A stretch of 23,415 nucleotides of DNA from a virus. The notes under the pieces were generated by a model that saw only the letters and a program-made list of their open reading frames with translations, made no database searches and was not told where the DNA came from. Position numbers and translations under genes: made by a program. This document shows, one piece after another, positions 3,914 to 21,980 of the stretch; the first letter of the stretch is position 1; every line of letters begins with the position of its first letter. Location: positions 1 through 23,415 of IMG/VR virus record IMGVR_UViG_3300005915_000119, one strand, 5' to 3'.

Positions 3914-4408
3914 TTATAACATATGGTGGTAGCCCCCAGCAGGGGCCCCCCAAGCTTGCATTTCATAAATATAAGCGTACCCCTGAGAAGTGCTATAGGG
4001 AATTTGCAAATCCCTACCCAGACCCACTACAATCGCTTTCATTCCTGTAACTCCTGACCATCCAGTATCATCTGATATCCACGTTGCTGTAGTTGTCCCC
4101 TGAGTTGTTTCAACATATATTATGTCTTGCCAATCACCATTAAAGTATAATTGTATGCCCCATTGTCGATACCCCCCACTTCTTCCTCCTCCAACTGAAG
4201 TAAACTTTAGTTTCACCTCTTGTATCTTACTACGGGGAAACCAACATATTGAGGATATAGACCCTCCAGCAGTCACCCCAAGAGCGTCCCACTTGCCCCG
4301 ATAAGACGCATCGTTAGCATCATTCATATCAGCGATTGCCCCTATAGTAAAAGAACCTCCTTCTACTACTACTAGGTCTTGATTATAAACAAGGTCTTTT
4401 GAAGGCAT
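3914..4408 (-). CDS. Candidate distal tail / receptor-binding protein
   Basis: The start ATG at 4408 overlaps the stop of the large tail-tip gene (TAATG), so the two are made together. The 164-residue product is rich in Gly, Trp, Tyr and Thr and reads as alternating beta strands. The stretch from about 63 to 155 (KIQEVKLKFTSVGGG onwards, ending YIYEMQAWGA) resembles a galactose-binding-like (jelly-roll) domain. Position directly after the tip protein, and a beta-rich ligand-binding-like fold, fit a receptor-binding or tail-tip accessory protein. The assignment rests on context and fold impression, not a recognised family. Confidence 0.5.
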   Translation of the reverse strand: MPSKDLVYNQDLVVVEGGSFTIGAIADMNDANDASYRGKWDALGVTAGGSISSICWFPRSKIQEVKLKFTSVGGGRSGGYRQWGIQLYFNGDWQDIIYVETTQGTTTATWISDDTGWSGVTGMKAIVVGLGRDLQIPYSTSQGYAYIYEMQAWGAPAGGYHHML

Positions 4409-7400
4409 TATGCTATCTCCACGTCGAGTTGAATTGAAATATCTTCACCCTCATAGAGCGAACCTATCTGGTCTACTCCTATAGTCACTTCATCCCCGGA
4501 TGCGATAGTCGTTGTATCAAATACTTCTCTGATAACCGTTTCGGGGGTTTCATCTCCTGATGGAAGTATTATTCTGTTCCACTGACTGGACGCCCAGATA
4601 GATGAACCATTAACGTCTACGTCTACTATGACTGAGTCTCCTGAAGAAGGTTTCTCTATATAACCTCTTGCACTCTTTATAGTAGCGTCGAAAGGCATTA
4701 TGAAAGTTCCACTGGCGTTGTCCCCAGACTCGGGAGACCCTGGAAGATACCAAAATAGTGACCTTCCTACTACGTCTGAAACTCCTGCTCCGTATATCGT
4801 TCCCGAGTTAATCTCTAACCCGTCTGTACCGTCTAATTTGAATCCAGTAACTCCCTCCACATAATTGTCACTTCTTATGTCTCCCGATTCGTTTATGACT
4901 ATCGAGCCTGCAGCTAAGGTACCTGCTATTAGTTTCGTAACTGAAAGGTTAATGATATGAGCGTTGTTTATGATAGCATCTCTGATTTGAGCAGACAGTG
5001 TTAGTATCTCCCCGGCATAGAGATTTCTGGCTTTTATGACTTCATCGCCAAACATGTCTGCTGTTAGCGTCTTATATTCGACGGATACAACGTTTGAAGC
5101 ATCTCCGCTACCATAAGTATCCACCCCGTAAACTCTGTACCATCTCTTATCGGTCAGCAACCATTCTGAGGTAGCATCTGGATTAGTATCCCAAACAGTG
5201 TCTCCTGTTATTGTTCCTGCGACTGCATCGTATCCTATAACCTGTCTAGTTTGTCCTCTTCCAGTACCTCTTGTTATAGCTAACTGGTCTCCCTCAAACC
5301 TCCTATCTCCAGAACCTACTAACTCTGTTGCAGTTAGAGTGTCATTTGTTCCACTATCCCCACTACCAGCAACTGGAGGGTCTCCTAGGATTGTTGCTCT
5401 GGTTCCTACTACCTTTGACTCTAACCAGTCATCCCCACTCCCCCATGTGTTATTTCTCGATACGTAGATGTCGTAACTTACAAGGTCAGGGTCTGTAACG
5501 TCTACCCAGTTTAGTTCTGCAAACCCAAACCACACTAGTGGTTCTATAACGGGCGCAGCAGGAGCAGCATTGGTAGGTGTAGTACTGGCCGAAGAGACCG
5601 AGTAGTTACCACTCCTGTCTATCGCCCTACAATAATAAGTACCAGGAGCGCGAGAACCTGGACTTATTATTGTGTACGTATCCGCCTGACCCCTAAATAC
5701 GAGATTAGAAACATCACCAGAGGCCCAAGTCACATCAGTAGTACGTATTTCATATCCCCACAGGTCTACATCTGTATTGGGAGTCCAAGCCAGTGTTATC
5801 TCGTTCGTAAATGTATTCGTAAGTCCCTGAACAACTGCTGGGGCACCTTGTTTACCTAAAGTGATGATGTTAGCAGAATACGCACCATCGGAAATATAGT
5901 CTCTCGTGGAGACTGTCTTAACTCTGATTATATAGGTTGCCTGACTTTCCACATCTGGAATAGTCATATACTCATCTTTCGTATACCCTACCACTGTATA
6001 TCCATCATCTCCTGATGTCCATACATTGATGAATAAACCTAGGTTGAGGATTGGGTCATCTTTGTAATCCTCTAACCTTGCTAATTCACTATCTCCTACC
6101 TTCCTTAACTCCACTTGGTAGTAATCGAAGTATTCAAATCCTTGCTTTATCCCATCCCAAGTAACTTCCAAATCTGAAATAGCTGCACCATCGTGATTGA
6201 AATAAACAGTCTCTTTAGCATCCACGTCTGTTGGATTTGGAAGAGGTTGCGTTTCATAATCTGTTAATGGTAGAACTGGACGGGTGTAGTTGGATAAGTC
6301 CCCTCCATAACTGTCAGTATAGAGAGTACCATAGTGCTCCCTACATTCTATCAACCTATTGTCATCATCCATTTCGGCTATAGACAGTATTCTGAATTGC
6401 TTCTTATCCCAATTGTAATCGGGTAAAGTTACAGATATGACATCTCCGGGTTCACAATGTACAGCTAGGATAGACGTTTTGAATGTTAGGTTAACCCCAA
6501 CGACCCGGGACATTCGCAGAAAGAAGTTTGCTACTCTGAGTGCTTGACTCTGTCTGGTGATTCCCATAAGTTGGACTTCTGTACCTACTACTCCTCGTCC
6601 TCCCTCTAAGTCGTTTCTCAAGACCTGGTCATTCAAGTCTTCTGCAATGGCGTAAACTTTCGTATATTCATTCTCGGGGTCTAAGAAGAGAACCTTTATC
6701 CTATTGTAGAACTCATCCTTACCCGTCATTGAGAACTTCGCACTATCCTGTATGATAGTATCTTCATCAAAGTCCTGAGTTGATACTTCTTCCTTCTCTA
6801 CGTTAAGAAACAGTTTACCTTGGGCCCACACTAGGAACCCTCCAAAGGTAGCAAGTATCTCACCTAGGATATCTAACTGAGACCTCTGAGAGTCAATTAC
6901 CATATCCAGTTCGAATCTATTCTCTAACCCTCCATCCCCATCTTCTACTTGACCATCACAGTAAAGGTATGAATTGTAGAAACTGGTGAAGTCGATTACA
7001 TCGTCACCCAATCCACATCCATATCTTTGATTAGTCAGAAAATCCAATACGCAAGCGGATGGATTATTGGAGTACTTTGTATTGGTCCAATTGAGTGCTG
7101 CATAAGGAGTTCGTACTTTCGTTCCCGCTACAGTTGAGGATACAACGGGGTTACCACCTTTTAGTTTGCTCCCAGCAGTAAGAGTAACCGCTAGATAAGC
7201 GAACCTTCTCATACCGTATAACTTACCCGCGAACCTCTCATCTTGGTCTTGGGTTTCAGTTCCTAGGTACGCAGTATAGGAACAACTTCCAATATCCTCT
7301 ATTGGAGTGTCGTTTACTTTAACATCTGTTATACTTGTAACTTCTCCCATACAGATACAAATCGCTCTCTTTACTGAAGCACCAGGTTCACTTTGGTAAA

Positions 7401-7641
7401 CATTGTTACCATACATCTTCAGTGTGCCGTATAGAATCGGAAGAGGTAACTCTGAAGTAGTTGTATTCTGAAGAGCACCAAATCCATATCGTGGAGAAGA
7501 ACCACCCGCACCAATAAGGTTACCGCCACCAACTGCTCCAGACTTCGGAGCAGTCATCATACCGTAAACTACAGCGGCTCCGGCAGCGACAATTACCCAA
7601 CCTATAATGGCATATGTTACAGCGGTGGCTGTTACAGGCAT
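4408..7641 (-). CDS. Large tail-tip / host-specificity protein (J or GTA gp15-like)
   Basis: 1077 residues. A hydrophobic helix at about 8-29 is followed by a glycine-rich linker. Residues about 60-440 match the tip-attachment core of lambda J-type and gene-transfer-agent megatron proteins, with a segment reading LPILYGTLKMYG early and a CEPGDVI loop at about 396-402. Residues about 480-860 contain fibronectin-III-like repeats (EITLAWTPNTDVDLWGYEI is typical). Residues about 862-915 form the helical linker with NNAHIINLSVTKLIAG. The end is a beta-sandwich common at tail tips (about 960-1077). Eleven SGD tripeptides occur between residues 543 and 1050 and none before. It presumably forms the tail tip and contacts the host. 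The start overlaps the stop of the NlpC/P60 gene by 10 nt. Confidence 0.85.
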   Translation of the reverse strand: MPVTATAVTYAIIGWVIVAAGAAVVYGMMTAPKSGAVGGGNLIGAGGSSPRYGFGALQNTTTSELPLPILYGTLKMYGNNVYQSEPGASVKRAICICMGEVTSITDVKVNDTPIEDIGSCSYTAYLGTETQDQDERFAGKLYGMRRFAYLAVTLTAGSKLKGGNPVVSSTVAGTKVRTPYAALNWTNTKYSNNPSACVLDFLTNQRYGCGLGDDVIDFTSFYNSYLYCDGQVEDGDGGLENRFELDMVIDSQRSQLDILGEILATFGGFLVWAQGKLFLNVEKEEVSTQDFDEDTIIQDSAKFSMTGKDEFYNRIKVLFLDPENEYTKVYAIAEDLNDQVLRNDLEGGRGVVGTEVQLMGITRQSQALRVANFFLRMSRVVGVNLTFKTSILAVHCEPGDVISVTLPDYNWDKKQFRILSIAEMDDDNRLIECREHYGTLYTDSYGGDLSNYTRPVLPLTDYETQPLPNPTDVDAKETVYFNHDGAAISDLEVTWDGIKQGFEYFDYYQVELRKVGDSELARLEDYKDDPILNLGLFINVWTSGDDGYTVVGYTKDEYMTIPDVESQATYIIRVKTVSTRDYISDGAYSANIITLGKQGAPAVVQGLTNTFTNEITLAWTPNTDVDLWGYEIRTTDVTWASGDVSNLVFRGQADTYTIISPGSRAPGTYYCRAIDRSGNYSVSSASTTPTNAAPAAPVIEPLVWFGFAELNWVDVTDPDLVSYDIYVSRNNTWGSGDDWLESKVVGTRATILGDPPVAGSGDSGTNDTLTATELVGSGDRRFEGDQLAITRGTGRGQTRQVIGYDAVAGTITGDTVWDTNPDATSEWLLTDKRWYRVYGVDTYGSGDASNVVSVEYKTLTADMFGDEVIKARNLYAGEILTLSAQIRDAIINNAHIINLSVTKLIAGTLAAGSIVINESGDIRSDNYVEGVTGFKLDGTDGLEINSGTIYGAGVSDVVGRSLFWYLPGSPESGDNASGTFIMPFDATIKSARGYIEKPSSGDSVIVDVDVNGSSIWASSQWNRIILPSGDETPETVIREVFDTTTIASGDEVTIGVDQIGSLYEGEDISIQLDVEIA

Positions 7642-8063
7642 CCTACCACCTCCAGGCCGTATCTAAACTTCCCCGTCCAATAGTCACTGAGGGAAGATAT
7701 ACAACTCTTTCCTACGTGAGGCATATACAAGAACTTATTATCCCCCAGATAGGCAGCGGCCAACTCTATTCTATCCTTCCCACTTATGGAGAAGAATATT
7801 AAGTCGTTTTCCTTTAGGTCTTCTATCCTATCTCTCCTATGTCCTCCGGCGGTAAGTTTTGCAATCTCATCATTGAATTTTCTTGCTGTGGTAAGTATAA
7901 AATGTCCGTCAAACTCATAATCGGGAAACTGCTCTTGTGCCTGGGTTCCCAATTCTCTATAATAGGCTATCAATAGAGTTACGCAATCCATGCCCTCCTC
8001 TAGTGTTTCCCCTTTGAGTTTATACTTAACTCCTACATACTTCTGCACTCTGTCATTTATCAT
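7632..8063 (-). CDS. NlpC/P60-type tail peptidase, possibly degenerate
   Basis: 143 residues in the position where gene transfer agents and lambda-like phages encode a tail-associated NlpC/P60 cell-wall peptidase. The N-terminal catalytic cysteine motif is clear at EEGMDCVTLLIAYYRE (C27). The usual histidine before the YLG strand seems to be missing: where the family normally has HVAIYLG, this protein reads LAAAYLG (101-107). The only nearby histidine is H116 in FLYMPHVGKS. The protein may use a shifted histidine or may be structural. It would sit at the tail tip and open peptidoglycan during entry. The ATG overlaps the DUF2163 stop (ATGA type), so translation is coupled. Confidence 0.75.
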   Translation of the reverse strand: MINDRVQKYVGVKYKLKGETLEEGMDCVTLLIAYYRELGTQAQEQFPDYEFDGHFILTTARKFNDEIAKLTAGGHRRDRIEDLKENDLIFFSISGKDRIELAAAYLGDNKFLYMPHVGKSCISSLSDYWTGKFRYGLEVVGCL

Positions 8064-8911
8064 TTTATCACCATATTCTCAGGGATGGTATGAAAGCCCC
8101 CGAAGTTTGCTTCGTTGCCATAATCGCCACTGCACATGAATAACGTCTTATCGCAACCAGTCCGCACCGTGTATGTATCTCCCACTGCTGGTGCATAAGG
8201 CATAGGGTTGTCTAAAGTAATCTGTCCTACTATACTTGTATCTACTGTTTGTCTGTACCCGTCATTCTGACCCGATGTGAATCTTACGTAACCTCTTCTC
8301 CAATACCTATCTGCCTCCGTTACATCAACTCCTTTAAGTTCAGTTGTAGTACAATCAGCGTCACATGTCTTACTTTTGCTGTACGCAGCATCTGCTACAT
8401 TTACTCCACACTCCTCTCCCCCGAACCTCCAATTGCAAGGTAACTGATACCATATGTGAGGGGCTTTCTTCTTCAACGAACTTATCCTTGGAACTACATT
8501 TATGGATAACCATTTATCGTCTACCGCTGGAGAATCCATTAGACCATCGAATATAGTAACAGCATCTCCTGAGGACCCCAATACGTTAGTGAATACCTGT
8601 CGGATAACTATTCGTCTACCTCTGAACTCATTAGCCTGTAAGTATCCTACCAAACTCTTATCTACATTGGATATTCCTACTCTCACTCTGTCTATGTCTA
8701 ATCCCAAAGAAGACTTCGCAGAACTTCTCGAACCTGGTACTGGTTGATAAACTGCAGCATCTCCCGAAGCAGCATTGAAGAAGCTAATACTCTCCGTGTT
8801 GTTAGCCACGAAGTAATATGTAGTTGTGTCCAGATAGAGGTCAATCAATTCGACTGGTCTATTGTGGTCACCTGATGCAGTTGTCTTAAAATCTTGAGTT
8901 AAGTTTCTCAT
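8060..8911 (-). CDS. DUF2163 / phage BR0599-type tail hub protein
   Basis: 283 residues. The layout matches the DUF2163 family: N-terminal beta domain, central ISNVDKSL and FRGRRIVIR, then VTIFDGLMDS, a cysteine-bearing CNWRFGGEECG (C159, C168), and the C-terminal signature TGCDKTLFMC...NFGGF (C253, C260). In gene transfer agents this protein forms the tail hub. Lambda gpL and the GTA hub bind an iron-sulfur cluster, and the four cysteines here are possible ligands. An extra pair, C183 and C187, is not part of the usual set as I know it. Four SGD tripeptides occur (residues 13, 49, 114, 261). Overlapping starts and stops link it to its neighbours on both sides. Confidence 0.85.
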   Translation of the reverse strand: MRNLTQDFKTTASGDHNRPVELIDLYLDTTTYYFVANNTESISFFNAASGDAAVYQPVPGSRSSAKSSLGLDIDRVRVGISNVDKSLVGYLQANEFRGRRIVIRQVFTNVLGSSGDAVTIFDGLMDSPAVDDKWLSINVVPRISSLKKKAPHIWYQLPCNWRFGGEECGVNVADAAYSKSKTCDADCTTTELKGVDVTEADRYWRRGYVRFTSGQNDGYRQTVDTSIVGQITLDNPMPYAPAVGDTYTVRTGCDKTLFMCSGDYGNEANFGGFHTIPENMVIK

Positions 8912-9474
8912 AACACCTCTACCAAGTCAATGTCAAAATTCCAAAGTTTGTAGGCGAATTGTTCTCGCGACAACTCATCCCCACCAAACCTAACTTGATA
9001 GTAGAATCTATAATCTGTTGCCATTACAAGTTCAGCACTTCCTGGAGCTACAGAGAACTCTATTGCGCCCGTAGTATAGTTCACCGTATAATCAGAAGCC
9101 TCTGTTACTGGAGTACCATCTACGGTTAAATCACAATCACCACTCTTAACTGGATACCTATCGAACTGAAAGGATTTCTCCGAACCTGTTCCAGTTCCTA
9201 CATGTTCATCTCCACTTTGGGAGATAGGACTTTCATCTGTAGCCTCCCAATAGAAGCTTTCTCCCTTTCCTGACTTTCCATTGAAGAAGTTGTATAGGTA
9301 ATCAGACTGCTCTGTGTTCCTTCCAGTTGCTCCCCATTTGAATCTATGTTTCGGACGAGTCCACTTAGAACGTCTTTGCTCCTTACCACTCATAAATGGA
9401 GAGACTAACGTTCGATATATCTTTGTTTTCTCATACGATAATACAATATCTCCTGTAAAGATTTCTGCACTCAT
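8908..9474 (-). CDS. DUF2460-like distal tail protein
   Basis: 188 residues. The N-terminal part, with TLVSPFMSGKEQRRSKW at about 22-38, and the C-terminal part, with DYRFYYQVRFGGDEL, match the DUF2460 family (gene transfer agent gp12 type), which forms the distal tail ring joining the tube to the hub. The middle contains repeated TG/SG turns and two SGD tripeptides (residues 87 and 111). It lies directly between the tape measure gene (its ATG overlaps the tape measure stop) and the DUF2163 hub gene (ATGA overlap), which is the expected order. Confidence 0.8.
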   Translation of the reverse strand: MSAEIFTGDIVLSYEKTKIYRTLVSPFMSGKEQRRSKWTRPKHRFKWGATGRNTEQSDYLYNFFNGKSGKGESFYWEATDESPISQSGDEHVGTGTGSEKSFQFDRYPVKSGDCDLTVDGTPVTEASDYTVNYTTGAIEFSVAPGSAELVMATDYRFYYQVRFGGDELSREQFAYKLWNFDIDLVEVL

Positions 9475-11675
9475 TATATTAAGTTCTCCCTCATTGCACC
9501 TCTAAGCGGTGTATTGTTCATAACTGCCCTTCCAACGACTATTTCTATAGCTTCTGGATTCGATTGAACCAGATTAGCAAAACTAGGCGCGTCTACCGCT
9601 TGGATGTAATAGTTGTGGTTCACAACATTTCCTGAACCTGCTCCTGTTGACTCCCCTCCACCTGAGGGTCCTCCTAGAGTTAAGTTTCCCGCTCTTATCG
9701 CAGATGCGAAACTCTTAGGAACTACCATCTCTCCTGGGGTTAGACTTGCAGGGACACTATCTGTACCTGCTGCAAATCCTTGTGACATAATAGTTGCTAC
9801 CTGTACTGCTCCAGCAGCTCCTGCAGATATTACGCCCATCATATTGAGAGGCCATCCAGGTGGTGCTGCTAATGCAGCAGTAACTGCAACCGCTGTATTT
9901 ATTATAGCCTCTCCTACCCTGAGAGCTTTTATGACCATTGCATACTTCTTACTCTCTCCCTGGGCTATTTCAAATAGAGACGCTACTGAACCCATTGTTT
10001 GAGCAGTGGAGCTCATAATTGCTTGAGCATTCGCTAAAGCTACCTTCTTTACCATTTCCTGTTGTGCTGCTAGCAACTCCATATATCTATCACCTGCGGC
10101 CTCTCGAATTTCTTGAATCTGTGTCTCCGCCAACCAAATAGCTGCGACCTTATCCATCTCTCCTTGAAGTATTGCTATTTTTTCTTGTTCTTTCATATAC
10201 GCAGTCTTCTCATGAGCCTCTTCCATTATAGCAGCAATTGCTGTGGTTCCTTCTAAGACTAACTCAGCTTCTTTTGTGTTCGAAACTCTTAGTATCTCAA
10301 GTTTCTTATTAGCTGCAAACTCCTCTTGACTTTGGCCCTCCCAAGGGTCCCCTCCTGAAACAATTGGAGTTGTTGGTGTTGGAGCTCCTCCAGTATCTTT
10401 TTTTACTCCACTTACTTTATCTATAGCGTTATTGACGAAAGCAACCGCTCTGCTTCCTACTTCTGCGCCTCCTGGAAAGATTGCATCTAGGATACCATCC
10501 TTAACTGATGTAAATAGTCCCCCCCTTATCATATCTGGTAACTTCCTCATAGCCAATGCTATATTTTGCATAGCGCTAATTAAGGGAGTTTCCTTTGCGA
10601 TGAACCCTCCTACTTCTATATTCATCATATGCCAAGAAGCAGCTACTTTATCCAATTTCTTCTTAGTCGTCTCCATCTGAACCTTTAACGCCTCTTCCGT
10701 GATACCCTGCCTATTCGCAAACTCTATAGCAAACTTTCTCGTCTCATTCATCTCTTTAGTTGCTGCTATCAATCCCTTCAAGGCTCTAACCCTAGGTAAC
10801 ATACGTCCTAATTCTTCTTTCCGTACCTTGCCCATCTCTTCTAAGATGTCTAAAAACTTACCTTGTTTTAAGGCCTCTTGAGTAGTCATATCGAACCAAT
10901 CTTGAGACTTCGCTTGTAACTCTTCGGTAGGTTTCAACAGACCCTGCATAATACCTGTCATCGCTGTAGCGGCTTCATTATAGTTACCCATCGAGACAGT
11001 CATCTTAGCATACGCGGCCATTGTATCTTCAGCAGAAATCTCTAAGTCACTTGCCATTGGTAAAAACCTACCAGCAGCAGATGATAACTCACCTATAGTC
11101 GCTCTGGCTCTAACCTGTGCTTTAAATAACAAGTCTGCAGCGTCAGCAGCACCGTTAAGAGAACTCCCGTACGCCTCCATTAGAGTTACCAACCCCTGAG
11201 TCGTTGCTTCCATATCCGAACCACCAGCGACAGCTAGTTTAGAAGCAGCAGCTAAGATGTTCAAAGACTCTGCAGTATTTCCTACAGCAGAATGTATGTC
11301 AAAACTAGACTTAAGGAGCGATTTAGTAGTCAGTCCATAGGTTACCGATAATTCCTTAATAGCCTTCTCAAACTGTTTCACATCTCCAGTATTACTACCC
11401 ATTAGAATAGCTATGTTGGCCAATCCCTTTTCGAAGTCTGCAAAAGCATTCAATGATTTCATAGCCGCCATAGCCACACCAGTAATAACTGCGGCTACCG
11501 CCATCCAATGAGTCTTTAGGAACTTTGCTGCTTTACCTCCGGCTCGTCCTGCTCCCCTCATAGCATTTCCTGCCCTCGTGGAGAAGTTTCGGATTGACCT
11601 CTGAGCGGAAGCTAATCCTGCTGCAGTAGCATTCCTGGCTTTGACAACTAATTCTAACGCTCTTTGATTCAACAT
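9474..11675 (-). CDS. Tail tape measure protein
   Basis: 733 residues, the longest helical protein in the operon. A hydrophobic segment at about 57-75 is followed by the conserved tape-measure core (NAFADFEKGLANIAILMG and following, about 76-330) of the TIGR01760 type. A helical, charged middle follows at about 330-550. An Ala/Gly-rich hydrophobic region stands at about 590-650 with the typical C-terminal GTDSVPASLTPGEMVVPKS. It sets tail length and is probably ejected on infection. At roughly 1.5 angstrom per helical residue the tail would be near 100 nm, a rough estimate only. AAGGA precedes the ATG. The gene follows the chaperone frame directly. It contains no SGD tripeptide, unlike the surface-exposed virion proteins. 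Confidence 0.9.
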   Translation of the reverse strand: MLNQRALELVVKARNATAAGLASAQRSIRNFSTRAGNAMRGAGRAGGKAAKFLKTHWMAVAAVITGVAMAAMKSLNAFADFEKGLANIAILMGSNTGDVKQFEKAIKELSVTYGLTTKSLLKSSFDIHSAVGNTAESLNILAAASKLAVAGGSDMEATTQGLVTLMEAYGSSLNGAADAADLLFKAQVRARATIGELSSAAGRFLPMASDLEISAEDTMAAYAKMTVSMGNYNEAATAMTGIMQGLLKPTEELQAKSQDWFDMTTQEALKQGKFLDILEEMGKVRKEELGRMLPRVRALKGLIAATKEMNETRKFAIEFANRQGITEEALKVQMETTKKKLDKVAASWHMMNIEVGGFIAKETPLISAMQNIALAMRKLPDMIRGGLFTSVKDGILDAIFPGGAEVGSRAVAFVNNAIDKVSGVKKDTGGAPTPTTPIVSGGDPWEGQSQEEFAANKKLEILRVSNTKEAELVLEGTTAIAAIMEEAHEKTAYMKEQEKIAILQGEMDKVAAIWLAETQIQEIREAAGDRYMELLAAQQEMVKKVALANAQAIMSSTAQTMGSVASLFEIAQGESKKYAMVIKALRVGEAIINTAVAVTAALAAPPGWPLNMMGVISAGAAGAVQVATIMSQGFAAGTDSVPASLTPGEMVVPKSFASAIRAGNLTLGGPSGGGESTGAGSGNVVNHNYYIQAVDAPSFANLVQSNPEAIEIVVGRAVMNNTPLRGAMRENLI

Positions 11676-12406: not shown

Positions 12407-13285
12407 TTATACTACTGTCAAAGTTAACACATCGTTATCTGTGTCATCGATGTAAGCAGTAAAGTTAAATGTTTCTGCAACGTAATCTGTCTGACTAGAC
12501 AACGGTGACGATGAATTGTCAAACAATACCTTGTTCATTTGGAGCTTGAATGAGCTCGAATCTCTGGAGTATGTTGCTTCCAGTTTCGTGGGAAGTTCAC
12601 TTAAGAACTTATCCAACTCATCAGTATCCTGAAACAGCTTCGTAAAGCTTCCTGTTATTACAACTTTAGTTGCTGGTATGCTTACTCTCTCTTTACCTGT
12701 GGTATAGAGGTCCGTAACGAGATTGTTGTTTATCGAAAGCGAGAACGAAGTTATATCTGTGTTCGCTACGTCATCGAATTCGAAAACAGCATCGTTATGT
12801 AGATACGGGTCATCCCCAGAAGTAAATGATGCTGAACTACCCTGAGTAAGCTTCTGATAACCTTTACCTTCTAGTGTGGCTACACACTGGAGAGGATTAG
12901 ATTGCGAAGAAGTAAACTCAAGAGAACTCACCATGTCTCCTGAAGTATAGATATCTGCTGTCTCTCTATCAACGTGTAAGACCAAAGAACTTAAAGGTCT
13001 ATCCGGTGCGTAAGGAGACGAAGAACCACCTACACCCGCTATCCACCACTGTTCGGGTCCTGAGGGAGTTACTGGAAAAGTTACTGAACCTGCTACGGCA
13101 ACATTCATTAATCTTCCACCAACCTGTGCTGGTGTATCCATAACTCTGTCTCCGTAGTAATAACTTTTGGTAATTTGTAGGTCTTCACTGTAGATTGATT
13201 GATACTCAGTTACTGCTCCTCCACTACCAAAGCTTAACTCTTTCCTTATTCCCATGTACCCTTGTGCTGCAATTGGAACTGTCAT
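12407..13285 (-). CDS. Major tail tube protein
   Basis: 292 residues, with a very strong ribosome site (AAAGGAGGTGATAC) before the ATG, as expected for an abundant structural protein. The sequence is almost all beta, with ITKSYYYGDRV and GSVTFPVTPSG early, YTSGDMVSSLEF followed by NPLQCVATLEGKGY in the middle, and strands ending FTAYIDDTDNDVLTLTVV. This layout matches phage tail tube proteins. It lies immediately before the chaperone frameshift pair, the normal order. Two SGD tripeptides occur (residues 115 and 156), both in predicted loops. The product would stack as hexamer rings to form the tail tube. Confidence 0.8.
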   Translation of the reverse strand: MTVPIAAQGYMGIRKELSFGSGGAVTEYQSIYSEDLQITKSYYYGDRVMDTPAQVGGRLMNVAVAGSVTFPVTPSGPEQWWIAGVGGSSSPYAPDRPLSSLVLHVDRETADIYTSGDMVSSLEFTSSQSNPLQCVATLEGKGYQKLTQGSSASFTSGDDPYLHNDAVFEFDDVANTDITSFSLSINNNLVTDLYTTGKERVSIPATKVVITGSFTKLFQDTDELDKFLSELPTKLEATYSRDSSSFKLQMNKVLFDNSSSPLSSQTDYVAETFNFTAYIDDTDNDVLTLTVV

Positions 13286-13301: not shown

Positions 13302-13490
13302 TTATTTAGTTATATCTTTTACCTTTTGTGTGAGTTTTCCATCTCTGCAAAACTCATCATGGACCATTGTTATTATCTCTTTCATGGACCACCTTCTCCT
13401 CATCAGCTCTGGTGGAAAAACCTTCGTACCGAAGCCTTCGTCACCGATACCTTCGACGGTCTTTTTTCCAGAATTTTCTTTGCCTGACAT
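13302..13490 (-). CDS. Small tail-operon protein, 62 aa
   Basis: The ATG at 13490 has a strong ribosome site (AAGGAGGGGAA), and the gene ends just before the tail tube gene. The product begins MSGKENSGKKTVEG and has a conserved-looking core FPPELMRRRWSMKEIITMV. It overlaps the 3' end of the radical SAM gene by 88 bp in a different frame. The good ribosome site, sensible composition and position support this being an original tail-operon gene, into whose 5' end the radical SAM frame reads. No function is recognised. Confidence 0.6.
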   Translation of the reverse strand: MSGKENSGKKTVEGIGDEGFGTKVFPPELMRRRWSMKEIITMVHDEFCRDGKLTQKVKDITK

Positions 13491-14824
13491 TTCCCCTCCT
13501 TATTGCTGTAGAGTAGATTATAGCCTCTTTGTTTGTACCACGCATAAAACTCCTTAAACTTTTCGTTCTCTGGGATATGGCTTAGCAATAAAGCTAAGGG
13601 TAAGGCCCATTTGTGCTTCGATATGAAGCCAAAGAACTTCTGAGTATTGTTTACGAACCTCGCATGACGGGGTTCAAACTTCAACTCAGTTTTGTCAAAG
13701 AAGTTGGGGCTAAAGTCATCTACGTTACATTCCCACAACCCCAATTCCTCACACTTCTTTCCTAACTCTAAGTTTGGATAGGGTTGAAAAATAGATGCCC
13801 AAGCTACAGCAGGTTTACAAGCGATGTTCAACCTAATTGTATCTAAGATGTCCTTTCTCGTTTCTGTGGGCGCTCCTATCATGTTCTCAGTTCTGAACTT
13901 CATCTTATGCTTCTTCAATAAAGCTACTCCAGCAAGAATCTTCTCATTAGACATATGTCTGTTGAGCAACTCTTTCCGAAGTCTTTCAGAACCAGACTCT
14001 ATAGCAAAAGTCACACCCGTACAACCTGCATCTTTCAATAGGATAATCTTCTCTTCTGTTATCCTGTCTATTCTTAACTGTGCGTGAAAAGGAACCTGAA
14101 CTTCATCCTTGTACATTAGCATCAGTGCTGTGAAGTTCGGATTAGAAGTAAACTCGTCATCCTGGAAGTATATCATCTCCAAAGGAAACCTCTTCAAATC
14201 CTTACATTCGTCTATTATGTTCCTGGCACCTCTAAATCGTACCAGCTTTTGCTTCTTTTCCCTGTATAACTGCTTGTATAACACGTTGTAACAATACGTA
14301 CAGCTAAATGGGCAACCCCTCATTGTCATAACGCTTTTAATGGGATTGTCTCTATTCCTATCGTACTTGTAGAGTAAATCTCTATCTGGAAATGGTATAG
14401 TGTCTAAGTCTTGTACCAAATCGCAAACCTCTCCACAATTAAACTCTCTACCATCTTCTATGCAACTAAGAAGCTCTGGAAGTGCCTTCTCGGCTTCTCC
14501 TCGTATGATGTAGTCGATACACCTCTCCTCTAATACCTCTGGGAAGTAAGTTGGATGAGGTCCACCAAATACAGCAATTGCATTTTGGAAGTACGTCTTC
14601 AGCAGATTGTTCAACTTTATGTAGTACTGATGTGTTCCCGTTGTTACAGAATACGCTAGGATGAACTTTTCGTCATGTAAATCTCTCATCTCTTTAGGAA
14701 CAGTTATATCCCCATTAGTCTTTACCAAGTCTACCTTGTGCCCTTCCTCTTTGAGGACAGAACTCAGATAGCCTATACCTAAAGGCTCGATAAGAAAATC
14801 ATCCATTACGAATACTACTCTCAT
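13403..14824 (-). CDS. B12-binding radical SAM enzyme
   Basis: 473 residues. The N-terminal domain (about 1-135) is a cobalamin-binding Rossmann-like fold with PLGIGYLSSVLKEEGHKV and FGGPHPTYFPE. The typical DxHxxG cobalamin-ligand motif is not seen, as in many base-off relatives. The radical SAM core follows with RGCPFSCTYCYN (C171, C175, C178), which binds the 4Fe-4S cluster and SAM, then FQDDEF and FAIESGSERLRKELL. Such enzymes often methylate unreactive carbons or act in natural product and cell-surface pathways. The substrate here is unknown. It is the last gene of a four-gene cassette with three glycosyltransferases (ATGA overlap with the GT9 gene). The last 28 residues overlap the next gene out of frame and look non-homologous. 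Confidence 0.85.
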   Translation of the reverse strand: MRVVFVMDDFLIEPLGIGYLSSVLKEEGHKVDLVKTNGDITVPKEMRDLHDEKFILAYSVTTGTHQYYIKLNNLLKTYFQNAIAVFGGPHPTYFPEVLEERCIDYIIRGEAEKALPELLSCIEDGREFNCGEVCDLVQDLDTIPFPDRDLLYKYDRNRDNPIKSVMTMRGCPFSCTYCYNVLYKQLYREKKQKLVRFRGARNIIDECKDLKRFPLEMIYFQDDEFTSNPNFTALMLMYKDEVQVPFHAQLRIDRITEEKIILLKDAGCTGVTFAIESGSERLRKELLNRHMSNEKILAGVALLKKHKMKFRTENMIGAPTETRKDILDTIRLNIACKPAVAWASIFQPYPNLELGKKCEELGLWECNVDDFSPNFFDKTELKFEPRHARFVNNTQKFFGFISKHKWALPLALLLSHIPENEKFKEFYAWYKQRGYNLLYSNKEGKCQAKKILEKRPSKVSVTKASVRRFFHQS

Positions 14825-15762
14825 TCTGACAACCCCTTTATTACATCAAGTATCGCAGACGCTTTCGTCTTGTTGATACATTTACCATTCACTTCCTTCG
14901 GGAATCTGCAATTAGTGTGACACCTTATTTCTTCACACTGTGGAAGGGTTTCTGACAATACGTTGATTACGTTCTCCCCCCAAGGTCCAGATGTTTCTGG
15001 AATTGTAGAACCCTGAAGTACTATTGTAGGTGTTCCTGAGGATGCTGCTACAAAACTCAGTCCACTATCGAGACCCACAAAGCATAGTGCCTTCTTACAT
15101 AACGCTCCTACCTGAGAAAGAGTCAACTTCTCTCTTACATCGAAGAACTTTACGTCTTCCTTATCCACAGTACCATTAGCAGGTCTATCTGTAGTTGCCC
15201 CTACCTGAAACACTGAAAGCCCCATATCTAAGAGACGATGAGTAAGTTCTTCGAACTTATCCCAATCCTTAGTAGGAACCCCAGATGTAGTATGAACTAC
15301 TACATACTTGTTCTGTTTGTTTATATCGAGCACTCTGTCTACTGCTGCATAGTCGTGCTCTGATAAAAAGAGTTGTACTTTTTCCCCTTCTTCTCTTGCA
15401 GGCAACCTACATCTGTCTAAATAATAATCTACCAGATGCTGATGCCTTAAATGGTCTAACTGATGCCATATCGTATCCTCTTGAGTTATTTGCTGAGGGA
15501 TAAGAACATCGTCATAATTCCATAAACCTTGCTTGTCAACAACCATCGTTAAAATGGCTTCCCAATTCTTTAACCAGTTTGGAGAAGTGTAAATCTTACT
15601 TACCCTAGGATTACCAAAGACTATGTCTTTGTATGCTTCATCCACGTATACATCTACCTCTGGTTCTTCGTACTTCTTATAGATACCATCTATAAGGTTA
15701 TGCACTAGAAGAACGTCCCCTAATGTCCTCGTAAGGACTATTGCTATCTTTTCCTTACCCAT
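14821..15762 (-). CDS. GT9-family (heptosyltransferase-like) glycosyltransferase
   Basis: 313 residues. The N-terminus IAIVLTRTLGDVLLVHNL (GD at 15-16) and the C-terminal motif FVGLDSGLSFVAASSGTPT (GLDSG at about 230-234) match the GT9 family, a GT-B fold enzyme group that includes ADP-heptose:LPS heptosyltransferases. The C-terminal cysteine cluster (CEEIRCHTNCRFP and a fourth Cys in NGKCI) is also seen in many GT9 proteins and may bind a metal. The sugar donor and acceptor are unknown. The ATG overlaps the stop of the upstream GT4 gene (TAATG), and its stop overlaps the radical SAM start, so the cassette is translationally coupled. Confidence 0.85.
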   Translation of the reverse strand: MGKEKIAIVLTRTLGDVLLVHNLIDGIYKKYEEPEVDVYVDEAYKDIVFGNPRVSKIYTSPNWLKNWEAILTMVVDKQGLWNYDDVLIPQQITQEDTIWHQLDHLRHQHLVDYYLDRCRLPAREEGEKVQLFLSEHDYAAVDRVLDINKQNKYVVVHTTSGVPTKDWDKFEELTHRLLDMGLSVFQVGATTDRPANGTVDKEDVKFFDVREKLTLSQVGALCKKALCFVGLDSGLSFVAASSGTPTIVLQGSTIPETSGPWGENVINVLSETLPQCEEIRCHTNCRFPKEVNGKCINKTKASAILDVIKGLSE

Positions 15763-16880
15763 TACTGCTCACCTCCGATTACTTTCAGTATCTTTACCGC
15801 TGCGTCATGCCATGTCCTGGCTTTCGCAGTCTCTGCATTAGCTAAACCCATAGCTTTTGCTTCCTCTTTATTAGTGAACATATGGCGCATTGCTTTTCGT
15901 AACTCTTCCACATCTACACTAGCCCACTTATGGTTCAATGCTTCAGGGCACTTCCTAATATAATCCACACTCGATATTTGTTCTAATGTGTAAGAAAGGT
16001 TGTGTCCCTGAAAGCCCAGTTCTGATAAGGAGGACCAATTGGTCGCTATTATGGGTAACCCACAGGCCATCGCCTCTAACACAGGTAATCCCAAACCCTC
16101 ACCTCTACTGGGTAATACTAAACAATCACATGCTCGATACAGATTCGCTATATCGGGCGTTGTTACTTTATCTCCAAAGAACAGTATCTTAGGTGGATTA
16201 GCTACCCATGAGGTAGATAACTCCTTTAGTCTGCTTACGAGTCTTCTTCTTTGTTGCATACCAAAGCCCCCATAGTGCGTTTTAAGTACTAAGCAAACAT
16301 CTTCGTTTGCCTTGAACTCTTTCGTAAACGCTTCAAGGAGAACTTCAAAATTCTTCCTTTCTGTAAAATCACCATTGGCTATAAACGTGAACTCTTTCTT
16401 ATTGAGAATGTTCGCTTTAAGGCCATCGACCTTAAACTCCTTCTCTATCCCCCAAGGAAGAATATGTATCCTATCCTTATCCAACCCTGAGTTCTGAGCC
16501 CATAAGTCCCTGTTGAAGTTACTAAACGTAAACACTCCATCAACGGCTTGTAATTCCTTCTCCCAAGGTTCGGGTAATCTATCTGTCTCAAATAGAGTAT
16601 AGATGTACCTCTTACAGTCTGCAGGTAACCTATCAAGTAATCGCTGTTGTGCTCTCTGATGCATTATCGCTGGAGTACCTGGTTGAACTTTCTGATTCAT
16701 CATTCTTTGTAACCTACGTGCTACATCTTCGTCTAACGATATCTTTTCTCTGTTCCAAGTAGTGGATTCATCCAAAGCTATACAAACACCCATCTTATCT
16801 AACTCAATGAGCATAGCTCTTGTCATTACTTCATATCCTGATTGCCCTGCAAAGGGTCCGTGCCAGATTAACTGGTTCAT
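15762..16880 (-). CDS. GT4-family glycosyltransferase 1
   Basis: 372 residues with the GT-B fold layout. A glycine-bearing N-terminal loop (GPFAGQSGYE) comes first, then the central IANGDFTERKNFEVLLEAF typical of the start of the GT4 nucleotide-sugar domain. The donor-site motif SRGEGLGLPVLEAMACG contains the E-x7-E pair E261 and E269. It should transfer a sugar with retention of configuration. The acceptor is unknown, and given the location a virion protein or a surface glycan are both possible. It is coupled to its neighbours by stop/start overlaps on both sides. Confidence 0.85.
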   Translation of the reverse strand: MNQLIWHGPFAGQSGYEVMTRAMLIELDKMGVCIALDESTTWNREKISLDEDVARRLQRMMNQKVQPGTPAIMHQRAQQRLLDRLPADCKRYIYTLFETDRLPEPWEKELQAVDGVFTFSNFNRDLWAQNSGLDKDRIHILPWGIEKEFKVDGLKANILNKKEFTFIANGDFTERKNFEVLLEAFTKEFKANEDVCLVLKTHYGGFGMQQRRRLVSRLKELSTSWVANPPKILFFGDKVTTPDIANLYRACDCLVLPSRGEGLGLPVLEAMACGLPIIATNWSSLSELGFQGHNLSYTLEQISSVDYIRKCPEALNHKWASVDVEELRKAMRHMFTNKEEAKAMGLANAETAKARTWHDAAVKILKVIGGEQ

Positions 16881-18097
16881 ACTCCTACCTCCTCTAATAT
16901 CATAGGATACTTAGTGGGCGATTCTAACTTATCGAAAAACGCCACCCATTGTTCTCCCACCTTTGTCCACGTATGGTCTAAGGCAAATCTATACGCCTTA
17001 TCTGCGCAATAAGTTCTGCCTCCCTCATCCTTATACATCTGTTGCATTGCTTCTGCTATTGCTCTAGGTTCTGGTACTGGTCTTTCAGTTAGGTATCTCC
17101 CTGTTAAGTAATGTCCCGCCTCTACAAGAAAAGACCTTTCCTCTCCTCCTAACTCTCCTGTTGCTGACTCGTTAAGAACTAACGTTGGTACCTTAGCGGC
17201 CATTGCTTCAATAACAGGAAGACCAAATCCTTCTCCCCCTATTGACACCAAAGCGTTTGACATATTGTACAGTATGTTCAGTTCTGGTTTAGATATCAAC
17301 TTCGAAAAGCTACTCCCCCTTGCTATCTGAGAAAAGAACACTATTGATTGAGAACCCGCTAAATCAAACGTTGCAAGTAAATCATCAATGTTATGCCCTG
17401 CAGGGTCATAAAAGTAAGTGTGTGGCCAAAGTACTGCCCCAGGACACATACCTTCTTCTTGTACTATCTTCCAAGCCTTGAATAACTCAGGCCAATTCTT
17501 TCTACCCTGATTTCTTGCAACACAGAGAAATATGAACCTATCCTGAAAAGTGTATCTACCTCTAAACTTCTTTTTTACTTCTGGAGGTAGAGGATAATAA
17601 TCTTTCTCATTTACTCCATGATAGATTACAGGTAACTTACCCTCCAAGAAAGGAAAACTCTTCAGTAGTGCGTCTTTACCGAAATCTGTATACGCAATCA
17701 CTCTATCCATAGATACTACGACCTTACCCCAAAAGTTAGGTAAACCCCCACCTATCTTTTCTCCGTCTACGGCTAAGTAACCTACCCACGAGAATAAGTT
17801 TCTACTCTTGCATTGGTTAGGGTCTGTTAAGTAATCGTAAAACCAAGGGTCACCAATTGTCAGAACCACATCTGGTCTTTCTCCATAAACAACTTGGTCG
17901 AAGATATCCTTCCCCCAAGAGTCTTGTTCTGTTGGTATAATTTTGAATGGATACTGGTCAGGGTCAACTTCCCTACTACCACAGGCCAGATAAATGATTT
18001 CATGCCCTGACTCATGCAAGACAGTAGCAATCTCTCCACCTACCTTTGCCATCCCTGTGTGTGAGCAAGGATTTTCTGTTAATACTAATATTCTCAT
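16877..18097 (-). CDS. GT4-family glycosyltransferase 2
   Basis: 406 residues. It begins MRILVLTENPCSHTGMAKVG, a typical GT4 N-terminus with a glycine loop. The middle has LCVARNQGRKNWPELFKAWK, the start of the second Rossmann domain, and the donor motif SIGGEGFGLPVIEAMA contains E289 and E297 (E-x7-E). It is the first gene of the modification cassette, with a strong ribosome site (AAGGAGGTAAG) and a GAAA-loop hairpin directly before that site. Its two ends fit a complete enzyme of the usual length. The donor and acceptor cannot be read from the sequence. Confidence 0.85.
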   Translation of the reverse strand: MRILVLTENPCSHTGMAKVGGEIATVLHESGHEIIYLACGSREVDPDQYPFKIIPTEQDSWGKDIFDQVVYGERPDVVLTIGDPWFYDYLTDPNQCKSRNLFSWVGYLAVDGEKIGGGLPNFWGKVVVSMDRVIAYTDFGKDALLKSFPFLEGKLPVIYHGVNEKDYYPLPPEVKKKFRGRYTFQDRFIFLCVARNQGRKNWPELFKAWKIVQEEGMCPGAVLWPHTYFYDPAGHNIDDLLATFDLAGSQSIVFFSQIARGSSFSKLISKPELNILYNMSNALVSIGGEGFGLPVIEAMAAKVPTLVLNESATGELGGEERSFLVEAGHYLTGRYLTERPVPEPRAIAEAMQQMYKDEGGRTYCADKAYRFALDHTWTKVGEQWVAFFDKLESPTKYPMILEEVGV

Positions 18098-18687: not shown

Positions 18688-19146
18688 TTAAAACTTCACC
18701 ATCTTACCGGTTAATGCCTTTCCTATATAATCTGTGAGTACCTTACTTATCCTTCTTTTATCTTCCTCTTGAAAGAGTAAAAACTTCCTCTGGGGTATTA
18801 CGGCCTTTCCCTGTACTCTACCAAAGTTATGTGTTGCTGCATATGCTACTGAAGTTCCTATCGCTACTTCCTTAGTACCTCTAACCTCGTAATTAATGCT
18901 ATTCTTTAAAGTACCGGTATCTTGTAGAATAGTAGAACTTCCCTTTCTTCTCTGCTTTACAGTACTGGGAGCGAGAGCTTTCCACTTAGCAGGTCTACCC
19001 TCTTGACGAAAGTTATCATCAACACTTCTTTGCATCAACATACCTATTTGCTTCATGGGTATGACAAGATTGCTCATCTTCCTTCCCAATCCCTTAAGAT
19101 ACGTATTCACCTGTTGCGAATTATCGTCAATTGACAATATTATCAT
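18688..19146 (-). CDS. Phage virion morphogenesis protein (Mu gpG-like)
   Basis: 152 residues. The central part, NFRQEGRPAKWKALAPSTVK followed by SSTILQDTGTLKNSI and AYAATHNFG, is characteristic of the phage virion morphogenesis / tail completion family (Mu gpG and HK97 gp10 relatives). The C-terminal IPQRKFLLFQEEDKRRI also fits. It takes part in joining head and tail. The ATG overlaps the stop of the preceding connector gene (ATGA), and it is followed closely by the tail terminator candidate, the expected order. Confidence 0.85.
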   Translation of the reverse strand: MIILSIDDNSQQVNTYLKGLGRKMSNLVIPMKQIGMLMQRSVDDNFRQEGRPAKWKALAPSTVKQRRKGSSTILQDTGTLKNSINYEVRGTKEVAIGTSVAYAATHNFGRVQGKAVIPQRKFLLFQEEDKRRISKVLTDYIGKALTGKMVKF

Positions 19147-19637
19147 TTAGTCCTCTCATCTACTATGTCATCCAACAAGTCAGGGTCTACTCTCTGGTTT
19201 TCTAAATCATCCATATCACATACAGGTGTATAATCTCTGTTGTGACTTACCTTTGCTCCTAAGGGAGAAGATATCTCAGGTAACTGCATTTCGAATTCTG
19301 CTATCTGGTCTAACTCCTTAATAGGTTCTTCACAGTATCTTTCTCTCCTGTTCTTATCCAAAGGATCACTACCTGGATTCTTCCTAGTGAGAATAAAACA
19401 CATTGACAACTTATTTGCTATTTCATATAGCAATGCTGGTTCACTTCCTGATGCCCAAGGTACCTGAGATGGATAAGACGACTCCAGTTTACTATTAATA
19501 GTCGCATATGCATTTCTCTGTGCCCTAGTAATCAAAGCACCAGAGAGTTGGGCCTCCCCCATATAGTTATTATGGGTGATTGCTAACCCTCCATTCATAT
19601 CCGCTCTTATGTCTCCACTGCTACCGTAGTACTCCAT
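19143..19637 (-). CDS. Head-tail connector, DUF1320 / gp36-like
   Basis: 164 residues with a strong ribosome site (AAGGAGGAAAG). The core ITRAQRNAYATINSKLESSY followed by LLYEIANKLSMCFILTRK resembles the helical head-tail adaptor fold of the Mu gp36 (DUF1320) family. The polar C-terminus (about 120-164) is probably disordered and acidic. One SGD tripeptide occurs near the N-terminus (residue 7). It is encoded between the head genes and the gpG-like gene, as expected for a connector. Confidence 0.65.
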   Translation of the reverse strand: MEYYGSSGDIRADMNGGLAITHNNYMGEAQLSGALITRAQRNAYATINSKLESSYPSQVPWASGSEPALLYEIANKLSMCFILTRKNPGSDPLDKNRRERYCEEPIKELDQIAEFEMQLPEISSPLGAKVSHNRDYTPVCDMDDLENQRVDPDLLDDIVDERTK

Positions 19638-19646
19638 CTTTCCTCC

Positions 19647-20060: not shown

Positions 20061-20082
20061 TGTTCACCTCCTTTTACTGTGT

Positions 20083-20109: not shown

Positions 20110-20141
20110 TAACCACAGGGTTACATTACTGCTGTTCAATT

Positions 20142-20576: not shown

Positions 20577-20596
20577 CTTTTACTCCTTTAGTGCTA

Positions 20597-20618: not shown

Positions 20619-20635
20619 CAGTCTATCCTTAGATG

Positions 20636-21556
20636 TTACGCAAGAACATTATCAATCAGATAACCGGAGTTAGTAGCTACCAGTTTCTCATCCTGAATCA
20701 TGCTCGGCTGAATAACATCACCGTCTCTTTCGTTATCCCTCCAGGTCTTAACTATAATACCATTCGATGTTCTGAATGTATAGCCAAGAGAAAGAGCCTC
20801 AAGTGAAGGTGAAGGTTCCGAGTAACATACAAGTACGTCATCGTCCCAAATACGCGAAATAGAAGCACTCTGCCCCTTCTTCGACGTATCTTCAGTCGCT
20901 TGAGCGAGAATGACTTTCAGGCCCCAAAGGACCGGAGGAAGGTCACCGTTCACAAGAAGTTCCTGGCCACCAGAACCCGTAATCGTGTATCTGATTAGGT
21001 TCCTGACGGTTGAGTCTTTCTTCACAACGTCTTTCACTTCGTCATTCATACATAAGATATTCGCCTCGACACCGGCATTCAATCTGACACTAGCTTTCGC
21101 AGTATCAATATCGGATTCGATAATCGGACTAGTTCCATCCCATTTAATTGCTGGGACAGCACTTGTAAGAGAAGCACCAGCTATCAGTGCTTTCGCCCTT
21201 TTTTCATAACCGAGCATCAGCCACTTCATCAACTTCTCAGTGGTTGTGATTTTCGGTCTGATAGGCGCATCAGCGTTCCTGACAATCCTGTCAGGAACAA
21301 GTTTCCTTAACGCATATTCTTCACAAGAATATGTTCCTGTCGACACATCCCAATCTGCCTCGTTCGCAGGTGCTCCTATTGCTCGATGAGTATCCATTTC
21401 CCGCATCTCTTCTCTCGAAAAGATGTAGTACTTGTCACTTTCTTTAACGACCTTTACAACGGGAAGTAGCATCTCAGCAACGAACGCGAGGTTACGATAC
21501 TTAATCGCAAGATTGGTGAGTGGCGTGCTTACATGAACGTTTGCTCTTTTAGGCAT
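20636..21556 (-). CDS. Major capsid protein
   Basis: 306 residues immediately after the decoration gene, with a strong ribosome site (AAGGGAGGTG). The sequence fits the HK97 fold seen in Mu-like and related capsids: N-terminal arm with TPLTNLAIKYRN, an E-loop-like region with YYIFSREEMREMD, a spine helix at about 105-130 (TTTEKLMKWLMLGYEKRAKA), and a P/A-domain part with CMNDEVKDVVKKDSTVRNLI and VLWGLKVILA. It has no zinc or enzyme motif. It contains no SGD tripeptide. The gene looks more GC-rich and more evenly coded than its neighbours, as is usual for a highly expressed capsid gene. This impression was not measured. Confidence 0.8.
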   Translation of the reverse strand: MPKRANVHVSTPLTNLAIKYRNLAFVAEMLLPVVKVVKESDKYYIFSREEMREMDTHRAIGAPANEADWDVSTGTYSCEEYALRKLVPDRIVRNADAPIRPKITTTEKLMKWLMLGYEKRAKALIAGASLTSAVPAIKWDGTSPIIESDIDTAKASVRLNAGVEANILCMNDEVKDVVKKDSTVRNLIRYTITGSGGQELLVNGDLPPVLWGLKVILAQATEDTSKKGQSASISRIWDDDVLVCYSEPSPSLEALSLGYTFRTSNGIIVKTWRDNERDGDVIQPSMIQDEKLVATNSGYLIDNVLA

Positions 21557-21572
21557 GGCCTAACACCTCCCT

Positions 21573-21980
21573 TTAGATTTTTTCCTCACGGATGTTTACA
21601 TAGGCGGTAACTATATCACCACTAGCTGTAGGTGCTTCTTCATAATGGCCAACAACGCCATCTCCAGAAGTCCAAGCCGTAGGTGTAGATACCTGACCGG
21701 TCGCATCATGAATGTGCAACATGTCACCGATAGAACCTGCAATCGCTGCGCGAACGTAGCTCTTACCTATCTGCATAACATTTACAACATCACCTGATGC
21801 TGCTGCGTCATCCTGAACGATACCGGCTATGAGATTGTCACCACTGGCGGCGGCATTAGTAACATGCCCTTCCTGACCAGCTGCGCCACTCCCACTGTAA
21901 ACAACAACCGAGTACTGAGTTAAAGCCTCATCAGCAATAAAAGAGTCTGCAAGTACTGGTCTATAACCTCTACTTGACAT
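21573..21980 (-). CDS. Capsid decoration (cement) protein, DUF2190-like
   Basis: 135 residues, small, Ala/Gly/Ser-rich and all beta, encoded just before the major capsid gene with a strong ribosome site (AAAGGAGGGTTAT). Segments such as LIAGIVQDDAAASGDVVNV and KSYVRAAIAGSIGDMLHI have the repeated beta-turn layout of DUF2190-type capsid cement proteins. It would sit on the outside of the head and stabilise it. Four SGD tripeptides occur (residues 46, 62, 105, 120), an exceptional density for this length. Confidence 0.75.
   Translation of the reverse strand: MSSRGYRPVLADSFIADEALTQYSVVVYSGSGAAGQEGHVTNAAASGDNLIAGIVQDDAAASGDVVNVMQIGKSYVRAAIAGSIGDMLHIHDATGQVSTPTAWTSGDGVVGHYEEAPTASGDIVTAYVNIREEKI

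Follow-up and report, generated by a model that had tools for sequence, protein, structure and literature searches.

Ser-Gly-Asp is enriched in virion proteins of uncultured tailed phages with a glycosyltransferase and radical SAM cassette: a candidate O-glycosylation sequon

The window and its SGD-containing proteins

The window analyzed here is a virus record of 23,415 bases (IMGVR_UViG_3300005915_000119, taken at its full length), in which the tripeptide Ser-Gly-Asp (SGD) is strongly enriched in the virion proteins encoded around a cassette of glycosyltransferase and radical SAM genes. Its minus strand carries the head and tail module of a tailed phage, in the order head maturation protease-like, decoration, major capsid, and connector and neck genes, three glycosyltransferases and a B12-binding radical SAM enzyme, followed by the tail tube, tape measure, DUF2460, BR0599, NlpC/P60 and tip genes. 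The cassette lies between the neck and tail-tube genes and consists of two GT4 glycosyltransferases, GT4A (16877–18097) and GT4B (15762–16880), a GT9 glycosyltransferase of the heptosyltransferase family (14821–15762), and the radical SAM enzyme (13403–14824), all on the minus strand, as are the six virion genes described next. The Pfam GT9 and GT4 models are above their cut-offs in the window, which identifies these as phage-encoded glycosyltransferases.

A scan of the 28 open reading frames (ORFs) found 25 SGD, against 2.5 expected from composition. The tail tip or J-like hub protein (4408–7641, 1077 amino acids; Pfam Phage-tail_3, PHROG central tail fiber J) holds 11, with the Ser residues between positions 543 and 1048 of the protein and their codons starting, by the high coordinate, at 6015, 5721, 5439, 5364, 5313, 5109, 4887, 4728, 4644, 4560, and 4500. 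Four each are found in the DUF2163/BR0599 tail hub protein (8060–8911, 283 amino acids; Ser codons at 8875, 8767, 8572, and 8131) and the capsid decoration protein (21573–21980, 135 amino acids; 21845, 21797, 21668, and 21623), and two each in the DUF2460 tail protein (8908–9474, 188 amino acids; 9216 and 9144) and the tail tube protein (12407–13285, 292 amino acids; 12943 and 12820). One is in a head–tail connector-like protein (19143–19637, 164 amino acids; 19619), which was named from its gene position and had no match in a PHROG search. The original prediction, made from the letters alone, had claimed this enrichment in virion surface and tail proteins, and every one of its per-protein counts was reproduced; it had overlooked the remaining SGD, in an ORF of 179 amino acids (2737–3276) for which 96 of 2000 shuffles contain at least one. 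No SGD occurs in the tape measure, the major capsid protein, the three glycosyltransferases, the radical SAM protein, or the protein at 22066–23382, previously taken for a scaffold, which matches PHROG head maturation proteases.

Two controls had been proposed for the enrichment, shuffled proteins and homologues of each family. For the first, each protein was compared with 2000 composition-preserving shuffles of itself. The observed count was never reached for the tip (shuffle mean 0.67), the DUF2163/BR0599 protein (0.16), and the decoration protein (0.12), and was reached in 6, 41, and 129 of the 2000 shuffles for the DUF2460, tail tube, and connector proteins, respectively. The first three are thus individually far past chance, DUF2460 clearly so, the tube weakly, and the connector not. 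The expectation for the tip had been put at about 0.3 for its C-terminal half; the value obtained here, for the whole protein at its own composition, is higher and likewise far below 11. Taken together, the six virion proteins contain 24 SGD; 1000 shuffles averaged 1.3 and never gave more than 7, and no count of any tripeptide in them went above 9. When identical contexts were collapsed, the window count stayed at 25 (Poisson p 5.7e-17; next tripeptide, 1.1e-4). Because shuffles do not reach the observed counts, chance was rejected.

Repeats, duplication, or composition might also generate such a count. Near-repeats do occur in relatives: a fibre-like protein of 1180 amino acids (G033; L055:317-3859) holds 27 SGD, many of them in near-repeats of the form Ile-Ser-Gly-Asp-Thr-Ala, and only 19 of the 37 SGD contexts of L055 are distinct. 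In the window, no two of the 25 contexts are alike, the 25 sites use 18 different 9-mers, and Ser, Gly, and Asp codon usage is near the background of the window ORFs; composition is preserved by the shuffles. A DNA repeat was therefore rejected for the window, and this explanation of the count is very improbable. As the codons follow the background, selection acts at the protein level, in line with the protein-level preference proposed originally.

Specificity for the whole triplet

In the six window proteins, one-letter neighbors of the triplet are not raised: other xGD tripeptides number 14 (14.7 expected), other SGx 14 (14.7), and other SxD 3 (13.6). The same holds for the 21 non-redundant cassette-phage proteins with at least two SGD, where other xGD, SGx, and SxD number 36, 43, and 24 (51.3, 50.5, and 47.1 expected); their 106 SGD against 4.9 are no test, since these proteins were chosen by SGD count. 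The excess belongs to the whole triplet, with the neighbors summed at or below expectation. This is the behavior expected of a sequon, a short fixed motif that is enriched in the substrates and not elsewhere and of which all letters are needed.

Relatives that carry the cassette

A search with the major capsid protein of the window gave 27 loci, and further relatives were collected with the GT4A protein, a GT4A alignment, and the SPASM and B12/radical SAM enzymes. As sets, the capsid-search loci with glycosyltransferases were SGD-rich and those without were not, and searches with the GT4, SPASM, and B12/radical SAM proteins yielded more SGD-rich phages. In ten cassette records, 243 non-redundant proteins (300 before near-copies were removed by a k-mer rule) hold 125 SGD against 21.4 expected. 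In the eight cassette records scanned, SGD ranks first among tripeptides in all except L057 (second place) and G006 (fourth place); in none of the nine other records scanned is it among the top six. Individual counts are 43 against 4.4 for G033, 26 against 4.1 for G040 (11 of them in one protein of 667 amino acids), and 19 against 1.5 for L095. When genome_contigs was scanned with a GT4B alignment, four partial matches were obtained, with identities of 33 to 41%.

The SGD-rich proteins of the cassette phages are decoration, tube, tip, hub, and fibre proteins. Of the 21 with at least two SGD, 20 are assigned to the virion by their family or, in several cases that match no family, solely by gene position, and the motif recurs in the Pfam families Phage-tail_3, Phage_BR0599, DUF2460, Phage_tube_2, Gp77, and Laminin_G_3. 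L101 and L118 each have both of the tube SGD. The 54-kb record G003 has the same tip and decoration proteins as the window, together with other tail proteins, close to its ends, and its middle looks like the remainder of the same genome. We divided this record by position: the 41 ORFs at 11551–44896, a part in which head and tail genes are not expected, contain 3 SGD against 1.9, and the other 18 ORFs contain 24 against 2.75.

Relatives and other phages without the GT4 genes

The excess is absent from the relatives without the two GT4s that were examined. Eighteen capsid relatives of this kind hold 23 SGD against 20.9 (L012, L020, L024, and L027 were left out by hand as near-copies, L027 having 2 SGD against 0.48); one of them, G016, has one other GT4-type match, and a single radical SAM match is found in another, G009, to which L011 belongs. 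Isolate phages provided the homologue control. Ten regions around tip or capsid relatives (10 among 1874 and 99 records listed) hold 23 SGD against 21.9, and the seven phmmer matches to the tip, BR0599, or DUF2460 proteins within them hold 3 against 2.7. A general property of the protein families is rejected by these regions, homologues, and capsid relatives. The decoration protein and the SPASM enzyme had no match among isolate phages, and the phage records searched yielded no isolate.

Neither did glycosyltransferases in general go with the motif in the isolates examined. Five isolates with other glycosyltransferases (TJE1, S-CBS4, Mae-JY09, S-EIV1, and LukeCage) hold 27 SGD against 23.0, and none of their tripeptides has p <1e-5, with S-CBS4, S-EIV1, and LukeCage represented by their first 49.9 kb only and the S-EIV1 stretch containing few recognisable structural genes. 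A general property of glycosyltransferase-bearing phages is hence not supported. Ten records have the B12/radical SAM enzyme and lack any GT4A or GT4B homologue that reaches 250 bits; they hold 17 SGD against 17.1, which rejects that enzyme as a sufficient factor. L115 (2 SGD against 2.1) was kept out of this set by hand because it does have homologues of GT4A and GT4B, though weaker ones (173 and 161 bits). Virion genes are present in this set: of 10 large proteins sampled from seven records (L107, L114, and L119 were outside the sampling), 8 have matches in PHROG families of head, tail, or packaging proteins, one of these matches being weak. L097, L098, L099, L104, L105, L108, and L116 carry the B12/radical SAM family in records that also have head, tail, or packaging genes, and as a set they show no SGD excess.

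Of the 48 records compared, L115 included, 11 have a homologue of GT4A or GT4B that scores 250 bits or more. An SGD excess at p < 0.01 is found in 8 of these 11 and in 1 of the other 37, so that both GT4 genes track with the trait. The exception is L095, whose contig stops beside its radical SAM gene. G003, G037, L051, L101, and L118 were omitted by hand, as belonging to the same genome, as near-copies, or as short fragments. The Fisher test gives p 3.7e-6, which should not be read as a fair probability, because the records are related to one another, include near-copies, and were collected by way of these genes. The link between SGD and the glycosyltransferase and radical SAM genes is new here; the original prediction listed those genes only as SGD-free.

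Conservation and turnover of the sites

Three SGD sites of the decoration protein, the last three of the window protein, are present in seven of seven cassette lineages, with all nine residues invariant in a 148-column alignment of which 30 columns do not vary. Three SGD are likewise present in this protein in L086 and L096, and two in the fragment in L100; no cassette is seen in L086, whose contig stops right past the decoration gene. In records without the GT4s, 17 decoration-type proteins were compared, with three near-copy pairs among them; 13 of the 17 have no SGD and four have one. The connector SGD is present in four of seven aligned cassette lineages.

Elsewhere the sites turn over. 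In four proteins compared between the window and L095, at 61 to 75% identity, 13 SGD sites coincide. Six sites of the window have no counterpart in L095 (three fall in stretches missing there, two in gapped stretches, and one is replaced), and five are particular to L095, where the window carries other residues. The BR0599 relative of L095 has six SGD, four of them common with the window, and its DUF2460 protein has both window SGD and a third. The L055 tube lacks both window tube sites and has one SGD located between them. This looks like a selected motif whose exact position matters little.

The predicted structure of the decoration protein has a pLDDT (predicted local distance difference test) score of 80.3 and places the four SGD (residues 46–48, 62–64, 105–107, and 120–122) outside strands, with a strand starting right after three of them; the blocks with the first and third have mean pLDDT of 71 and 68. 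A fold search with this model matched capsid chains of HFTV1, the phi29 head fibre base, Pam3, Sf11, and TW1 (best E 1.2e-6; 17 matches at E<=0.001, with titles that name phage capsids). By this model the protein is a capsid-bound fold of the HFTV1, phi29 gp8.5 base, and TW1 type, and the matched chains are presumably outer decoration proteins. The surface location proposed originally thus gained structural support, limited to the decoration protein; the tail-tube model (pLDDT 51) was too poor and was not used.

These positions could also be expected of a structural or binding motif (a beta-turn, a metal site, or a receptor contact) spread by selection and unrelated to the cassette. Some relatives without GT4s have Gly-Asp or Gly-Glu minus the Ser at two decoration sites, so part of the SGD context is an older turn, and the single neighbor NGD is somewhat raised in the 21 SGD-rich proteins (6 against 2.5). 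A turn preference should, however, raise DGD, TGD, SGN, or SGE, which in the six window proteins number 1, 2, 1, and 0 against 1.3, 1.4, 0.7, and 0.8 expected, and the motif recurs across several Pfam families at positions that shift. We regard a structural or binding motif as quite unlikely.

In a capsid tree, from which duplicates were removed by hand, the SGD phages form one clade (96/95). When L096 and L100 were added (and L029 and L031 left out), the best tree requires two changes and 12% of bootstrap trees require one. The cassette and the motif arose together, with one origin or two, and their association across the 48 records is partly phylogenetic. With so few origins, the link to the cassette rests on the negative sets, the spread through different proteins, and the turnover of sites, and not on many independent gains.

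The cassette enzymes

The best solved match of the GT4A alignment is the glycosyltransferase B736L (3oy2) of NY-2A. For the B12/radical SAM enzyme it is 6fd2, titled 'putative apramycin biosynthetic oxidoreductase 4', and BtrN is also among the best solved matches of the cassette enzymes; we take both to act in aminoglycoside-type sugar chemistry. The GT9 protein resembles heptosyltransferases and is above no NCBIfam cut-off. It scores 29.5 bits against TIGR04414, the TibC/Aah O-heptosyltransferases (cut-off 200), and is not a member of that family; against the lipopolysaccharide heptosyltransferases I, II, and III it scores 65.9, 39.4, and 64.0 bits, below the cut-offs of 185.3, 134.6, and 170.2. 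Judged from these resemblances, the cassette may comprise enzymes that build and transfer an unusual sugar.

Cassette content varies among relatives. G003 has a second cassette with a GT4, a GT2, a methyltransferase, a protein aligned to aldo-keto reductases of relatives, a second B12/radical SAM enzyme, and a SPASM radical SAM enzyme; G006 has a similar set, and in G033 and G040 the SPASM, aldo-keto-reductase-like, and methyltransferase genes are grouped with the first set. In L096 and L100 the cassette that follows the neck genes is larger, with sugar-nucleotide, GT2-like, LicD-like, and more radical SAM genes. L100 encodes a GDP-mannose 4,6-dehydratase (390.8 bits, cut-off 415; above the Pfam cut-off), an HddA-like gene (160.3, cut-off 600), and a GmhA-like gene (71.7, cut-off 276), and L096 an RfaE-domain-II-like gene (71.1 bits, cut-off 181.5).

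G003 further contains, at L033:7752-9419, genes for QueC and a QueD-like PTPS protein, with a radical SAM protein where QueE would be expected. This set with QueC- and QueD-type genes reads as a 7-deazaguanine pathway, possibly for DNA modification.

The existence of such a possible route, and of several radical SAM enzymes in the cassettes, bears on whether SGD is a modification signal read by some other enzyme, through host glycosylation or a radical SAM change of the residue, while the glycosyltransferase cassette makes a DNA sugar or a host surface glycan. The triplet-specific excess would fit the signal of any enzyme. The excess, though, tracks the presence of GT4A or GT4B and not of the B12/radical SAM enzyme alone, and in each record that shows both ends (the window, L053, L054, L047, L055, L060, L064, and L096) the glycosyltransferase genes are placed between neck and tail-tube genes. 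A signal for a non-cassette enzyme is therefore unlikely.

A candidate O-glycosylation sequon

In the reading that we consider likely, the phage encodes a system for O-glycosylation of virion serines, and SGD is its acceptor sequon. Ser would be the modified residue and Gly-Asp its required context, and the sites would be exposed turns of outer virion proteins, as the model suggests for the decoration protein and as presumed for the tail tube, hub, tip, and fibres. The cassette would make the sugar and transfer it to these proteins, probably while they are in the cytoplasm, ahead of assembly or in the course of it, with one of the two GT4s or GT9 recognizing SGD. The modification would be a glycan, perhaps with a heptose-type sugar, as the relatives suggest, and could serve to shield or tune the particle surface. 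The fuller proposal, that these phages have their own general O-glycosylation system with a strict SGD sequon, acting on at least six virion protein families with an unusual radical-SAM-modified, possibly deoxy-heptose sugar and leaving the rest of the proteome at background, has about an even chance of being correct.

Besides the raised NGD count and the Gly-Asp and Gly-Glu residues of relatives without GT4s, several observations weigh against a sequon served by the cassette. QueC of G003, an enzyme, holds two SGD and is one of the 21 proteins with at least two. G033 has single SGD in its GT9 protein, its tape measure, and ORFs of 225 and 1050 amino acids. G031/L053 has the cassette, yet its visible hub and N-terminal tip proteins are without SGD, and G031, L048, and L117 fall short of the 0.01 threshold despite a GT4 homologue. 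The 48 records are related and some are near-copies (L053/G031 and L054 have 11 identical ORFs in common), and with one or two origins the cassette and the motif could share ancestry without cause. The sugar-gene matches of L096 and L100 are under the NCBIfam cut-offs, and DNA or host glycans could be the true substrates of the cassette enzymes.

Comparison with known systems

In proteoglycans, Ser-Gly with an acidic neighbor is an O-glycan acceptor context. That system differs in being eukaryotic, with a looser consensus and unrelated enzymes.

Glycosylation of phage virions is known, for example in the mycobacteriophages Che8, Corndog, and Myrna (Freeman et al. 2023, as reported in PMC12363180 and PMC12619734), whose phage-encoded glycosyltransferases, according to the same two sources, modify capsid and tail-tube proteins. 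Their glycans are described there at the C-termini of capsid and tail-tube subunits, whereas here the tripeptide is internal and present in many proteins, and the cassette also holds radical SAM and probable sugar-building enzymes. The chloroviruses likewise encode glycosyltransferases, and their major capsid glycans are on Asn outside the usual sequon (PMC5408694). NY-2A B736L, the best solved match of GT4A, is given there as of unknown function. The chlorovirus system is Asn-linked, in the major capsid protein of an algal virus; in the window the motif contains Ser, is in decoration and tail proteins, and is absent from the major capsid protein. The GT9 enzymes TibC and Aah transfer several heptoses onto serines, and not threonines, in the TibA peptides examined (PMC4358343). 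Their substrates are autotransporters, and the window GT9 is far under the cut-off of their family, as given above. Among the matches listed in the open-licence literature, no SGD sequon and no strict tripeptide sequon used in multiple virion proteins was found.

If the sequon reading is correct, the site rule of a phage glycosylation system could be read from sequence, candidate modified serines could be listed, and more such phages could be found. A tag of three residues that many folds accept would, moreover, be of use for attaching sugars to proteins. Scanning for tripeptides is itself a general approach and could expose other modification signals in uncultured phages.

A separate excess was seen in L115, a phage whose GT4, SPASM, and B12/radical SAM genes are divergent. 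Its proteins contain 12 Ala-Gly-Ser (AGS) against 2.3 expected and 13 Thr-Gly-Ser (TGS) against 3.1, and a tail-region protein of 713 amino acids (L115:17728-19869) holds seven AGS and four TGS, possibly a different motif.

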